Below are positions 15,037 to 19,857 of a stretch of 39,261 bases of DNA, piece after piece. The position numbers and the translations under genes were made by a program. The notes under the pieces are model-generated. The model had not been told where the DNA came from and ran no database searches. It saw only the letters and a list, made by a program, of their open reading frames with translations. The DNA comes from an uncultured Rubrobacteraceae bacterium (GTDB lineage: Bacteria; Actinomycetota; Rubrobacteria; Rubrobacterales; Rubrobacteraceae): NCBI GenBank assembly GCA_902806065.1, contig CADCVE010000044.1, positions 1-39,261 of the forward strand. The letters run 5' to 3'. Within the stretch, counting starts at the first letter, position 1. Every line of letters begins with the position of its first letter.

Positions 15037-15729
15037 ATGAGTCGAAAGGGCGCCTTCTTGATAGACCTCGGCGAACGTTGGTTCCGCTCCGGCGGAGCGG
15101 GATGGTACCCCGGCCTCTACGAATGGTTCTTCAGCAAGACCCGGAGAGGGACCATTTTACGGACGCGAGAGGAAGAGGTCGTCTACGAGATGCTCACAAC
15201 CGTCTTGAAGCCTGGCCACTCCGTCATAGAGTTCGGGTCCGGGACGGGTAACTACACCGTCCCCCTGGCCCGTCGCTGCGCCGGGATGGTGACTGTCGAA
15301 ATCTCCGAAGAGATGAACGGATACCTGCGAGATCGCCTCCTCCGGGAAGGTCTGACGAACGTGGAGGTCCGGCAGGGGCGCGTGGAAGACGGCGCGGCCG
15401 GGAAGTTCGATGGGGCGCTCGCGATGGGGCCCTTTTTCTACGTCCGGGACCTCGAAGACGGCCTGCGGGCGCTCGCCTCCGCCTTGAAGCCCGGCGGCTG
15501 GGCAATCTTCGGCGTGCCGCTGCCTACGACCGAGGGACGTATCTTCGCCGCAAACGAGACCCTGGCCCGCCGCCGAGTCTACCTCCGGCCCCCCGGAGAG
15601 ACGCTGGAGTCTGTAGAGAGGGCCGGCCTGAAGGTCGAGCAAACAGGCGCCGTCGGGACCAGCCGGGAGGGCCTGACTCTGGTTATCCAGGCAAGCGTTC
15701 GAGTCCTGCACGATGCTCGAACATGTTGA
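15037..15729 (+). CDS. Class I SAM-dependent methyltransferase (paralogue A)
   Basis: A 230-residue methyltransferase with a Rossmann-like SAM fold. Motif I is EFGSGTGNYT (residues about 70-79), the acidic residue after strand 2 lies in VTVEISEEM, and the post-II block is the common phrase ALKPGGWAIFGVP. The C-terminus carries R-R-R-V-Y-L-R-P-P-G-E-T-L. The substrate is unknown. It is clearly related to the convergent gene at 15748 along nearly its whole length and even shares the unusual N-terminal W-F-x-x-G/E-x-A-G-W motif. The ATG at 15037 has a weak ribosome site; TTG at 15058 is an alternative. The gene is divergent from the LysR regulator. Confidence 0.85.
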   Translation: MSRKGAFLIDLGERWFRSGGAGWYPGLYEWFFSKTRRGTILRTREEEVVYEMLTTVLKPGHSVIEFGSGTGNYTVPLARRCAGMVTVEISEEMNGYLRDRLLREGLTNVEVRQGRVEDGAAGKFDGALAMGPFFYVRDLEDGLRALASALKPGGWAIFGVPLPTTEGRIFAANETLARRRVYLRPPGETLESVERAGLKVEQTGAVGTSREGLTLVIQASVRVLHDARTC

Positions 15730-15747: not shown

Positions 15748-16440
15748 TCAGACGGGACTGCCGGTCGACGCGGCTGGTACCGTCGCCCCGACCGTGAGCG
15801 TAAGCCCGCCCCGGCTGAGCCCGGCGGTGGCCGTGTAGTCCGCTCGGAGGCCAGCCTTTATCGTGCTGTTCAGGATTTCGTCGGGGGAGAGCAGGTAGGC
15901 TCGCCGCCGGTTAAGGAGCTCGCTGAGCGCGTAGATTCCCCCTTCGGTAGTTGTCACCGGCACGTTGAAGATGGCCCAACCACCAGGCTTTAGCGACGCC
16001 GTGAGCGCCTGCAACGACTCCTCCAGGTCCTCCGCGTAGTTGAGGACGCCGATGACCAGCGCCCCATCGAACTCTCCCGGTCTCGCTCCCAGCTGATCCG
16101 GCAGTCGCCCCGGCCGTGCCTCGACGTTCGATAGCCCTTCCCGAAGGAGGCGCTCGTGCAGGTATTGCAGCATCTCGGGGGAGGAGTCGAGTGCTATGAC
16201 CTCCGCGCAACGGCGGGCAACGGGCACGGTATAGTTCCCGGTCCCGCACCCGACTTCGAGGACCTTGTGGCGTGGCCGCAGGACTTCTCCGAGGAAGGCG
16301 TAGACGGCCTCTTCTTCCCGGGAGCGGATGGTCGCGCCGACGCGCGTCCCAAAGTACCTCTCGAAGAAGCGGGGGTTCCACCCGGCTTCGACGGGCTGGA
16401 ACCACAGCGTGCGCGCGTTCTTCATATTCTTAGCTTTCAT
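15748..16440 (-). CDS. Class I SAM-dependent methyltransferase (paralogue B)
   Basis: A 230-residue methyltransferase. Motif I is EVGCGTGNYTVPVARRC, followed by an acidic residue in IALDSSPEM, then SLKPGGWAIFNVP, and a C-terminal NRRRAYLLSPDEIL segment. It closes the minus-strand operon that starts with the glycosyltransferase at 19857, beginning seven bases after the EamA gene. Such tight packing suggests it acts on the same product, perhaps methylating a sugar or lipid, but the sequence does not show the substrate. Paralogue A lies tail to tail with it, 18 bases away. Confidence 0.85.
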   Translation of the reverse strand: MKAKNMKNARTLWFQPVEAGWNPRFFERYFGTRVGATIRSREEEAVYAFLGEVLRPRHKVLEVGCGTGNYTVPVARRCAEVIALDSSPEMLQYLHERLLREGLSNVEARPGRLPDQLGARPGEFDGALVIGVLNYAEDLEESLQALTASLKPGGWAIFNVPVTTTEGGIYALSELLNRRRAYLLSPDEILNSTIKAGLRADYTATAGLSRGGLTLTVGATVPAASTGSPV

Positions 16441-16447
16441 GTACGTT

Positions 16448-17296
16448 TCACTGCTTGGCCGGTACGCGGCTCGGGGAGATGGAGAGTATGACGGTCCCGA
16501 CGAGGGCGAAGAGGATGCCGCCGCCCAGGAGGGCGCGTGGGAGGATGCCGGCGGGCCAGGATTCGCCGAAGAGTAGTGGGGCGCAGGCTATCGGCACCAC
16601 TGTGTGAATTGCCAGGATCATCGGCACCACCACCGACGCGTAGCCGGTTTGGAGCGCCTCTAGCTCGGTGGCAATGCTCAAGAGGCCGAAGACTACAGTG
16701 CCGGTCGTGAGGAGCCTGAGGGGCAGCACGACGACTACGGGCTGCACAGCGTCGGCGACGCCTTTGCTCAGGATGCCGCTCAACGCGTAGGCCAGGCCCG
16801 CCGCCGTTCCTCCTATAACGGCCCCAACCGGCCGGCGCATAGCCTTGAGCGCGTAAGGGAGCACCGACGCGGAGCCCAAGATGACCAACAGCAGGAGCCA
16901 CTGCGTGAGGCCCGGAGGGATCTCGCCGAGGCGCGGGGGGGCGAAGCTGGCCGCTGTCACCCCGATCGCTATAAAGCTCACCCCCAGGACCTCCTTGCGC
17001 CCGAGAGGTTCTTTCAGGAACCATCGGGTCAGCCCGAGCAGGAGGCCGAGCCCGGCGACGTTCAGGATACGCGCGAGCGTGAGGGGGATCAGGGTTAGCG
17101 CGGCGATCTCCAGCACCCAGCCCAAAATGCCAAGGGAGATCGCGAAGAAGCCCGGAGCGCGCCGAACCGTACCCAGGAGTATCGAAGAACCTCCCGAGTG
17201 CCGGCGCGCTGCTACGGCGAGCAGCACCGCGGAGCCGTTGTACGCGGCCGTGGAGGCCAGGATCAAAAGTACCCCTGGCAGGACCCCTGATGTCAA
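16448..17296 (-). CDS. EamA/DMT-superfamily transporter
   Basis: A 282-residue membrane protein with about ten helices arranged as two EamA-type repeats of the drug/metabolite transporter superfamily. Visible marks are LARILNVAGLGLLLGLTRWFLKEPLGRKEVLGVSFIAIGV closing the first repeat and CAPLLFGESW with GGGILFALVGTVIL closing the second. The start is TTG at 17296, sharing four bases (TTGA) with the deacetylase stop, which implies translational coupling. Members move amino acids, nucleotide sugars or, in the Arn system, lipid-linked aminosugars. Moving a lipid-linked sugar would suit this operon, but that is inference. Confidence 0.8.
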   Translation of the reverse strand: MTSGVLPGVLLILASTAAYNGSAVLLAVAARRHSGGSSILLGTVRRAPGFFAISLGILGWVLEIAALTLIPLTLARILNVAGLGLLLGLTRWFLKEPLGRKEVLGVSFIAIGVTAASFAPPRLGEIPPGLTQWLLLLVILGSASVLPYALKAMRRPVGAVIGGTAAGLAYALSGILSKGVADAVQPVVVVLPLRLLTTGTVVFGLLSIATELEALQTGYASVVVPMILAIHTVVPIACAPLLFGESWPAGILPRALLGGGILFALVGTVILSISPSRVPAKQ

Positions 17297-18021
17297 CCTC
17301 CGGCGTCCAGTAGCTCTCCGGCGGATTGTACGCGTAGCCCCGAAGAGGAGAGCTGTCCCAGGATCACCGGCAGTGCACCGAGGGTGTTGCGCCAGGAGCC
17401 CGGGGCTGCGTAACGGTCGGAGTCGTGCAGCAGGAGAATGTCACCAGCCTCCGGCACACCGATGGTCCTCGCCACGCTCCGGGGCGTTGCGCGAGCCTCC
17501 CAGTCCCGTCCCCAACGCGCCCACAGCACCCGCCTCCAGCCCTGCCGGTCCGCCTCCAGCCAGGAGGCGAGGTTGAAGATCCCATACGGCGGTCTGAAGA
17601 GCCGCACCGGACACCCGGACGCCTCCTCGATAGTCCCCCTAGCCCGGCGCATGTCCTCGACTGTCGCACCAGGGGTCAGACGCAGATGGTTTCGGTGCTG
17701 GTAACAATGTACGGCTACCTCGTGCCCACCCGCAATTATCTCTTCCAGCCTTCCCGGAGCACGAGCCACCTGCTCCCCGACCACGAAGAACGTGGCCCGC
17801 GCTCCGTACTCCTCCAACACCTTCAGGAACGCATCCAATCCGATGTCGGGGCCGTCGTCGAAGGTCAGCGCCACGGCGTCACTTGTCTTGGCTCGCGTGA
17901 TGGCCGGGAAGAGGAGTCGCCCCGGTGGAAGGAGGGCGCTCGCGGGCGCTGCGTGCGCGGCGAGGAGGGCCGCCGGGGCACAGGCTGCGGCGAGCGCTAG
18001 AGCTCGGCCAGCGGTACGCAT
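17293..18021 (-). CDS. Polysaccharide deacetylase (NodB-like), secreted or membrane-anchored
   Basis: A carbohydrate esterase family 4 deacetylase of 242 residues from ATG at 18021. That start puts a signal-like hydrophobic segment (about residues 5-30) first; longer frames up to 18288 overlap the upstream gene and look like shadow. Motif 1 is LTFDDGPD, motif 2 is H-C-Y-Q-H (the HxxxH metal ligands), motif 3 is RLFRPPYG, followed by D-I-L-L-L-H-D. All metal and catalytic residues are present, so it should remove N- or O-acetyl groups outside the cytoplasm. The start overlaps the end of the preceding NodB-like domain by 25 bases. Confidence 0.88.
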   Translation of the reverse strand: MRTAGRALALAAACAPAALLAAHAAPASALLPPGRLLFPAITRAKTSDAVALTFDDGPDIGLDAFLKVLEEYGARATFFVVGEQVARAPGRLEEIIAGGHEVAVHCYQHRNHLRLTPGATVEDMRRARGTIEEASGCPVRLFRPPYGIFNLASWLEADRQGWRRVLWARWGRDWEARATPRSVARTIGVPEAGDILLLHDSDRYAAPGSWRNTLGALPVILGQLSSSGLRVQSAGELLDAGG

Positions 18022-18731
18022 TCGAGGTGCCTGTCTCTTATCTCCCGCAAGGCCCGCGCGAGCTTGTGGCGGGCTGCTTCCGGGCCGAGGCCGGAGGTAT
18101 CTACGAGCATCAGGCCGGGGCTGGGAGCCCCCTGGGTCTCGCCGGGCATGACGAGGCGGGTGTGCGAGGGAGCCTCCGCATATGCGGCGAGATTCGTCCT
18201 GGTAGCTGGCAGGAAATACTCCGGCGGCGCTCCGGTGTTTTTTTGGATCTCCAACACGGCGGCCCGTGCCTGCGATTTCGCTCTCCACGGCAAACAGGAG
18301 CCTTCGTTCCCGGGCTCCTCCGCCACCCCGAACGCAAGCCCCGCAGCCGGACGCAAACCCTCCGACGCACGCGCGTTGGCGAAAACGGTAACAGGCATGC
18401 GTTCTCTCTGAAGCCCGCTCTCCACGGCGGCCGCGTTATCCGGGTCGGTCACCCTCACCCCCAGCGAAACCTCGCCGGGCGAAGGGTCGTATCCCGGCAC
18501 GTCGGCGCGAAACCCCTTCGCCGCCACCGCCACCCCCGCGGGCGCGAAGGCCAGCCACGACAGAAACGCGAGCAACGACACACTCGCCAGAACCGGCCGC
18601 GGCCCCGAAACTCGCCGTGGCCGCGCCGGTCGCGGGACGCCACCACTTGCCGCCAGGGACTCCAGGACTGCGGAGACCGCTTGCGCCCCGGCCTCCTTCT
18701 TCGGGGCGGGCAGAGAGATTCCGCGTTTCAC
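17997..18731 (-). CDS. Downstream frame of the glycosyltransferase: helix plus catalytically dead NodB-like domain
   Basis: A 244-residue open frame. Its first 35 residues are the natural C-terminus of the glycosyltransferase (KRGISLPAPKKEAGAQAVSAVLESL). A membrane helix follows (about 47-71), then a domain shaped like a polysaccharide deacetylase: EVSLGVRVTDPDN where active enzymes have LTFDDGP, MPVTVFANA for ATFFV, N-T-G-A-P-P-E-Y-F-L-P-A for the RPP motif, and a closing ECVPLAEL. The metal-binding residues are missing, so I expect no catalysis. If expressed alone it would start at GTG 18731 without a good ribosome site; being part of the upstream protein is more likely. Confidence 0.6.
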   Translation of the reverse strand: MKRGISLPAPKKEAGAQAVSAVLESLAASGGVPRPARPRRVSGPRPVLASVSLLAFLSWLAFAPAGVAVAAKGFRADVPGYDPSPGEVSLGVRVTDPDNAAAVESGLQRERMPVTVFANARASEGLRPAAGLAFGVAEEPGNEGSCLPWRAKSQARAAVLEIQKNTGAPPEYFLPATRTNLAAYAEAPSHTRLVMPGETQGAPSPGLMLVDTSGLGPEAARHKLARALREIRDRHLECVPLAEL

Positions 18732-19857
18732 AGCGGACCCTAGCAGGGCCTGAAGCTCCTCCGGGCCGCTTACCTGGAGGGCCGCCGCCTTTCTCCATGA
18801 TAAGGGCGTTGAACTTTCCGTGTCCGGGTATGGGGTCGAAGATGACTATTGGTAGGCCGACCTCTATGGCCTCCGTGCAAGTCATCCCTCCCGCGTTTTG
18901 TATGAGGCAATCAGCCGCCGCCATGAGTACCGGCATGTCTTTTGTCCAGCCGAGTATCCGCACGTTGTCCCGCGTCCCGAGGCTCTCTTCGAGCCGGGCT
19001 TTGAGCTCGGTGTTGTTCCCGGTCACGACGATAGTGTACGCTCCTGATTCCGATGCGCACCGGGCCGCGCCACCCAGGTCCCCGATACCCCACGCGCCCC
19101 CCACGACGAGGACCATGAAAGCCTCGTCGGGGAGCCCGAGTATCCTACGAGCCTCGCCGCGCGCCGGCGCCGAGTAGAAAGCAGGCGCCACGGGCATCCG
19201 TACCACGACGGCCTTGCCCCCGGCATATTCAGTTAGCTTCGCGGAACGGCGCGAGACGACGAGATGAAGGTCCGCGCTTGGGGACACCCACAGGGGATGG
19301 ACTCCATAATCCGCGATGACCGCCGCCGCCAAGACTCGCAGCCTGCCTCTACTGCGCAAGTGTCCGAGGGCGGCGGTAACCAGCGGGTAGGTAGAGACGA
19401 TAAGGCCCGGCTTCTCCTCGCGTATGACCTTCAGCAACCGGTTCGCAAACAGCAAACTCGTCGTAAACCGCACGGCGGAGGCGCCTGCCCTTCGGGAGGT
19501 CACGGCGAAGATGGCGCCAAGAGATCCAGGTTTATTCCTGGCCTGGTTGCAATAAACTCGGTTCAAAAACCAACTTAGGGTAGTACTCATCTCGTGCAAC
19601 CCATCGGCCATCGTCACGCTCCAGCCGGCCTTCTCCAGCTCTGCCTGAACCGTTCGGCCCGTTGCCTCATGCCCCCCGCCCACCGCAGCCGTGAGGACGA
19701 GGACCTTTGCGGGTGTGGCCTCCTTATCAGTCCCGTTCTTTCGCAGGTAGCCTTTGCGGTGGATGACCTTTTCGTCCGAAAACCTTTGCGAGTAGAAGAG
19801 AGATCCAGCCCCCGAGAGCAAGAGAGCAAGTACGACGAGCGCCAGATATCCGGTCAT
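17997..19857 (-). pseudogene. MGDG-synthase-type glycosyltransferase joined to a degenerate NodB-like domain, interrupted by a one-base frameshift
   Basis: ATG at 19857 has a perfect AGGAGG nine bases upstream. The first part (residues 1-355) has an N-terminal helix, KVLVLTAAVGGGHE (glycolipid synthase motif, 60-64), and the UDP-sugar site Q-N-A-G-G (320-324) followed by G-H-G-K-F-N. At about 18795 the frame shifts: reading one base further on (G-A-G-A-A-G-G-C-G) gives K-A-A-A-L-Q-V then E-E-L-Q-A-L-L, the expected end of such enzymes, which runs straight into the next open frame. In the original frame the tail is Gly/Arg/Pro-rich nonsense to 18436. Repaired, the protein is about 619 residues: glycosyltransferase, helix, NodB-like domain. 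Real decay, programmed shift and assembly error all remain possible. Confidence 0.75.

Follow-up and report, generated by a model that had tools for sequence, protein, structure and literature searches.

The glycosyltransferases (GTs) UgtP and MGD1 act on diacylglycerol (DAG). Genes for DAG glycosyltransferases form operons with plcP (PMC8231724), the small multidrug resistance (SMR) proteins ArnE and ArnF are reported glycolipid flippases whose fold is related to that of drug/metabolite transporter (DMT) proteins (PMC9574504), and BA0330 and BA0331 are inactive proteins of carbohydrate esterase family 4 (CE4) with a role in the envelope (PMC4505593). Here, we analyzed a 39,261-nucleotide stretch of DNA from an uncultured Rubrobacteraceae bacterium (the window; contig C44, CADCVE010000044.1, of a draft actinobacterial genome with 112 contigs, 95.4% completeness, 3.75 Mb, and Rubrobacteraceae as its closest named relatives). 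Its minus strand encodes, from 19857 down to 15748, a GT28 glycosyltransferase followed by a NodB-like domain, a CE4 deacetylase, a DMT-like transporter, and finally an S-adenosylmethionine (SAM) methyltransferase. We give a probability of about 0.5 to the reading that these form a co-transcribed envelope module making an amino-sugar lipid. The cytoplasmic, UgtP-like GT28 domain would attach an N-acetylated hexosamine to a membrane lipid, probably DAG; the DMT transporter would move the glycolipid to the outer leaflet; and the secreted CE4 enzyme would strip the acetyl group outside, leaving a free amine. The NodB-like domain, a dead CE4 domain facing outward and tied to the GT by one transmembrane (TM) helix, would most likely bind either the live deacetylase or the product once flipped, and thereby couple synthesis inside to deacetylation outside, with the methyltransferase as an optional extra.

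The compact operon of these functions that a preliminary description had put forward is real, and neighboring genes overlap or nearly abut throughout the set. The stop codon of the NodB-like frame (17999-17997) falls within the deacetylase gene, whose ATG is at 18021; the transporter start (TTG 17296) overlaps the deacetylase stop (TGA 17295-17293); and 7 bases separate the transporter stop (16450-16448) from the methyltransferase ATG (16440). When compared with genomes G107 or G203 (G, C, L, and f numbers are our handles for genomes, contigs, loci, and families), the third codon positions of the GT, NodB-like domain, deacetylase, and transporter varied 2 to 3 times as often as the second, and these sequences are therefore protein-coding beyond chance. 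A scan for promoters and terminators gave counts little or not above those of shuffled sequences, with nothing decisive.

The GT domain, preceded by an N-terminal TM segment (18786..19857, minus strand), matched PF06925 (MGDG_synth; E = 1.8e-18, 67.7 bits against a cutoff of 25) as well as PF00534 and PF04101, and Pfam and NCBIfam searches gave no GT2 match, in keeping with its assignment to GT28. A profile built from intact relatives retrieved UgtP (9wde; E = 6.7e-48) and MGD1 (4wyi; E = 7.8e-42) from the PDB, with MurG far behind (2.2e-5). The NCBIfam model of UgtP was matched at E = 8.5e-34, under its curated equivalog cutoff, a level of similarity that would not imply the same function as UgtP. 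In four Thermomicrobiaceae loci from another phylum (L065-L068), a GT 44-47% identical belongs to a constant gene arrangement that has no deacetylase or transporter nearby. In G008, G224, and G107 C10, a family 2 glycosidase (L051 4473-6602, L057 9318-11423, and L058 4546-6618, respectively) adjoins a more distantly related GT28 gene, and in G008 and G224 a deacetylase accompanies that GT as well.

In the window, comparison of frames with relatives placed a frameshift at about 18785..18796 (minus strand) that cuts the GT domain away from the C-terminal portion of the same protein: relatives are matched by frame A up to NALIMEK (starting at 18810) and by frame B from KAAALQVSGPEEL onward. A single open frame encodes GT, linker, one TM helix, and NodB-like domain in G107, G096, G118, and G128, and the same one-frame fusion occurs in the distant families f38 (G101, G197) and f34 (G089). 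Because relatives carry both parts in one open frame, the NodB-like domain, which the preliminary description had counted as a function of its own, forms the ectodomain at the C terminus of the GT and is severed from it here by the frameshift; the separated piece (17997..18790, minus strand) comprises the end of the GT, the linker, the TM helix, and the extracytoplasmic domain. We rejected an independent gene starting at GTG 18731, as the domain is fused in relatives and that start sits within the GT domain. A programmed frameshift was also set aside, given that relatives have one open frame, no classical slippery site was seen, and the fusion copy of G006 is split elsewhere, in the linker. 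The G006 GT (L041 2403-3593) looks like a decaying copy, its donor-site motif NAGGMT reading SASAIT, and that of G203 terminates a few codons ahead of the usual end. True lesions and assembly errors look alike in draft genomes such as those compared, and the broken window GT is either a recent pseudogene or an assembly error; a search of the window genome found no second GT copy. On a tree of 82 GT domains, the labels "fused" and "unfused" required at least 8 changes, suggesting that the ectodomain was gained or lost repeatedly, although we do not rely on the figure, some "unfused" labels reflecting contigs that ended early or ectodomains that the search missed because of their divergence.

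The ectodomain has a NodB fold by homology and has lost its catalytic and metal-binding residues. Alignment of the pseudo-domains with the neighboring live deacetylases by hhalign gave a probability of 97 (E = 8.5e-11, 174 columns), while PF01522 recognized 6 of the 32 pseudo-domains (best 1.9e-6). The predicted structure of the window piece (mean pLDDT 83.9 overall, good in the ectodomain) had its best PDB matches among CE4 proteins, namely the CE4 enzyme 7fbw (Z 14.9, rmsd 2.9, 157 aligned residues) and the CE4 pseudoenzyme BA3943 (Z 14.2-14.4, 162-166 aligned). In the merged alignment, D55, D56, H105, R143, and H199 (live-enzyme numbering) were kept in none of the 32; the first Asp is R in 25, the first His G in 31, and the last His D in 21, and the residues the pseudo-domains conserve among themselves include a G and a P (31/32 each). 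The 15 residues before the TM helix hold 107 Lys/Arg across the 32 sequences and the 15 after it hold 40, which would make the GT cytoplasmic and the pseudo-domain extracytoplasmic. It is possible, and we propose it tentatively, that the dead deacetylase forms an outer arm without enzymatic function, to which the flipped glycolipid is passed or the live deacetylase docks; a single protein would then reach across both stages of amino-sugar-lipid formation, an arrangement kept in at least two actinobacterial classes. As a matter of annotation, GT28 proteins of ~580-640 residues in Rubrobacteraceae and Acidimicrobiia-like actinobacteria bear a CE4 pseudo-domain that Pfam mostly misses.

Among the fold matches of the ectodomain was also ArnD (8t0j; Z 10.9, rmsd 3.0, 157 aligned), which bears on a different choice of acceptor: were this a polyprenyl phosphate lipid, the carrier-linked amino sugar would be handed to another envelope polymer in an Arn-like manner. 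We consider this improbable, because the GT is of the DAG-type GT28 kind, unlike the GT2 of ArnC, because ArnD works inside whereas the window deacetylase has an export segment, and because PAP2/GtrA neighbors are inconstant. What speaks for such an acceptor, besides the fold match, is that CE4-fold ArnD and SMR-type ArnE/F serve such a pathway (PMC9574504), that a PAP2-GtrA protein is encoded upstream in G203, and that a small membrane protein clustering with it is encoded downstream in L062.

The live deacetylase (17293..18021, minus strand) is of the active type. It matched PF01522 at E = 3.1e-29 (101.9 bits against a cutoff of 23.1), begins with an N-terminal signal/anchor segment, and has the NodB motifs, namely the catalytic Asp and His and the metal-binding Asp-His-His; D55, D56, H105, H109, R143, and H199 are invariant across 22 aligned live deacetylases. 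That a secreted deacetylase travels with the GT suggests that the product contains an N-acetylated sugar. The GT might instead make an ordinary Glc- or Gal-DAG that is flipped as an anchor, with the CE4 enzyme deacetylating a surface polysaccharide or peptidoglycan on or near it. UgtP and MGD1 are indeed the nearest solved relatives of the GT, the best PDB relatives of the deacetylase (e.g., PgdA and PdaC) act on peptidoglycan or other polysaccharides, it matches the PdaB model TIGR02764 (E = 7.5e-34, though under the cutoff), and one actinobacterial family has, after the deacetylase, a mannosyltransferase-like gene of the GT87 type (L053 4734-6221, L084 3766-5169). We nevertheless hold this reading to be rather unlikely, as it would not explain a dead deacetylase copy fused to the GT, and as a peptidoglycan deacetylase need not accompany one GT family as regularly as was seen across loci. 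A scan of named genomes found 149 places encoding a relative, and in 68 of the 80 examined (picked as the best by likeness to the query, kin included, and hence not independent events) a CE4 deacetylase with TFDDGP-type, RxP[YWF], and LLHD motifs lies directly downstream of the GT on the same strand. The window genome has just 4 PF01522 genes in 3.75 Mb, so chance adjacency would be expected about 1 time in 100 or fewer.

A survey of 39 genomes of the window organism's class showed that the neighborhood is kept; the preliminary description had named the lack of such conservation as grounds for refuting its proposal. Pseudo-domain and close deacetylase are confined to the same 7 genomes (G000, G006, G107, G203, G118, G128, and G096). 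Of these, 6 also have the transporter, and G314 has a fragment of it; G006 is the exception among the 7, its contig breaking off within the deacetylase. In a second arrangement, the transporter stands beside GT paralogues (G107 C19, G096 C2, G118 C13, and G128 C154), and in G107, G096, and G128 a calcineurin-like phosphoesterase gene adjoins the GT. Several Rubrobacteraceae have such a gene next to GT28 genes (L047 6429-7799, L058 7851-9206, L048 5938-7368); its product had no match in the PDB, and none was seen beside the window's own GT among the window's open reading frames. The GT-pseudoNodB fusion also occurs in Acidimicrobiia-like actinobacteria, where five loci (L071, L082, L086, L090, L104) have fusion, deacetylase, and transporter in this order with short spacing, their transporters forming one BLAST cluster; transporters of that cluster are divergent from the GT in L071, L085, L091, and L095. 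These are only about 21-25% identical to the window transporter, so that common descent within the module is likely rather than established. In the genomes compared, all three genes (GT, deacetylase, and transporter) are kept as neighbors in Rubrobacteraceae, and the GT-deacetylase pair is kept across much of Actinomycetota.

The transporter (16448..17296, minus strand) is, judging from the PF00892 matches of relatives, its modeled fold, and its adjacency to the GT, a probable DMT/EamA-type membrane protein and our candidate for a glycolipid flippase. With regard to the EamA call made earlier, the window protein itself had no Pfam EamA match, while 4 of 17 aligned relatives matched PF00892 (best E = 5e-5) and the model (pLDDT 87.5, about ten long helices) resembles DMT/SMR proteins. 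All six best rows in the VIA comparison were SMR/DMT structures (Z 10.9 to 9.0, in a range where helical bundles reach Z 13 by arrangement alone), Gdx-Clo among them (Z 10.9, rmsd 2.7, 104 aligned); Foldseek gave no match to the model under E = 0.001. Every full-length transporter match in the 39 genomes adjoins a GT of the window GT's family, second arrangement included, and in another class the pair is again accompanied by transporters belonging to one BLAST cluster. These two observations make it very improbable, in our view, that GT and deacetylase are the only functional pair and the transporter and methyltransferase unrelated neighbors, even though DMT genes are common in bacteria, the methyltransferase is rare, and neither Streptomyces nor contig C17 of G107 has the transporter next to the pair.

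The methyltransferase (15748..16440, minus strand; PF13649, E = 1.1e-17) is a class I SAM enzyme and a lineage-restricted accessory, outside the widely conserved core. It was found in 3 of the 39 genomes at E = 1e-25 or better, which weakens its earlier listing as a pathway member; on contig C495 of G314, though, where the order is as in the window, its gene and that of the transporter share 4 bases, and in G006 it comes after a different GT28-like gene. As it has no evident export segment, methylation outside the cell would be unlikely. A paralogous methyltransferase gene (15037..15729, plus strand; 55% identical over 211 residues) lies convergent to it outside the operon; the two, 18 bases apart, are an inverted duplicate seen in the window genome only among the 39.

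For the proposed amino-sugar-lipid module as a whole, the earlier suggestion that an acetylated sugar-lipid is made inside, moved, and deacetylated outside fits the predicted topology and the protein families, and it is the donor sugar, the acceptor, the flipping, and the coupling role of the dead domain that we infer. Several points weigh against it. The window's own GT is broken; UgtP uses UDP-Glc and MGD1 UDP-Gal, neither of them UDP-GlcNAc, and the deacetylase is the sole reason for proposing an acetylated donor; the polysaccharide substrates of the deacetylase's close relatives and the gaps in transporter occurrence described above count in the same direction; and DMT proteins move many small molecules, so that their fold is uninformative on lipid transport. 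If the module does operate as proposed, it would be a widespread, unstudied actinobacterial way to place free amines on membrane lipids, with changed surface charge and lipid biomarkers as consequences, and the fused domain would provide a clear example of a pseudoenzyme that has been retained and whose role can be tested.

Each part of the module is of a known kind, and the combination is apparently uncharacterized: a GT28-TM-pseudoCE4 protein with a live CE4 enzyme and a DMT protein was not found in the literature searched, which left out most subscription journals, nor did that literature yield a GT28-type synthase reported alongside a polysaccharide deacetylase or anything bearing on Rubrobacter aminoglycolipids. 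The UgtP/YpfP and LtaA pair of Firmicutes is alike in coupling a GT28 DAG glycosyltransferase from this family with a membrane protein, the presumed flippase of its product, but LtaA is a major facilitator superfamily protein rather than a DMT protein, and the pair comes without a deacetylase or a pseudo-deacetylase ectodomain. BA3943 and BA0330/BA0331, to our knowledge, are not fused to a glycosyltransferase. These CE4 pseudoenzymes (PDB 7bkf; PMC4505593) share the NodB fold, and BA0330 and BA0331 the non-enzymatic envelope role, whereas the window-type ectodomain has all five checked catalytic positions replaced. In the Arn pathway (ArnC, ArnD, ArnE/ArnF), a sugar is likewise placed on a lipid, a CE4-fold enzyme deblocks the amine, and an SMR-type flippase moves the product; Arn, however, employs a GT2 enzyme, polyprenyl phosphate, and deformylation inside, as against GT28, DAG, and deacetylation outside in our proposal, and the window GT is not of the ArnC type. 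PlcP-Agt/GTcp lipid remodeling (PMC8231724) also involves a DAG glycosyltransferase operon, and the phosphoesterase gene beside GT paralogues in related Rubrobacteraceae recalls this arrangement, its product being a candidate PlcP, but GTcp and Agt are GT4 enzymes and no deacetylase takes part. MatB and IcaA-IcaB (PMC4391728) likewise join a NodB-type deacetylase to a glycosyltransferase in actinobacteria; there the NodB domain is N-terminal to a GT2 polymer synthase, in contrast to the GT28 domain, C-terminal dead NodB domain, and separate live enzyme of the window, and the window GT is not a processive GT2 synthase of the kind that defines the Ica, Pga, and Mat (PNAG-type) systems.

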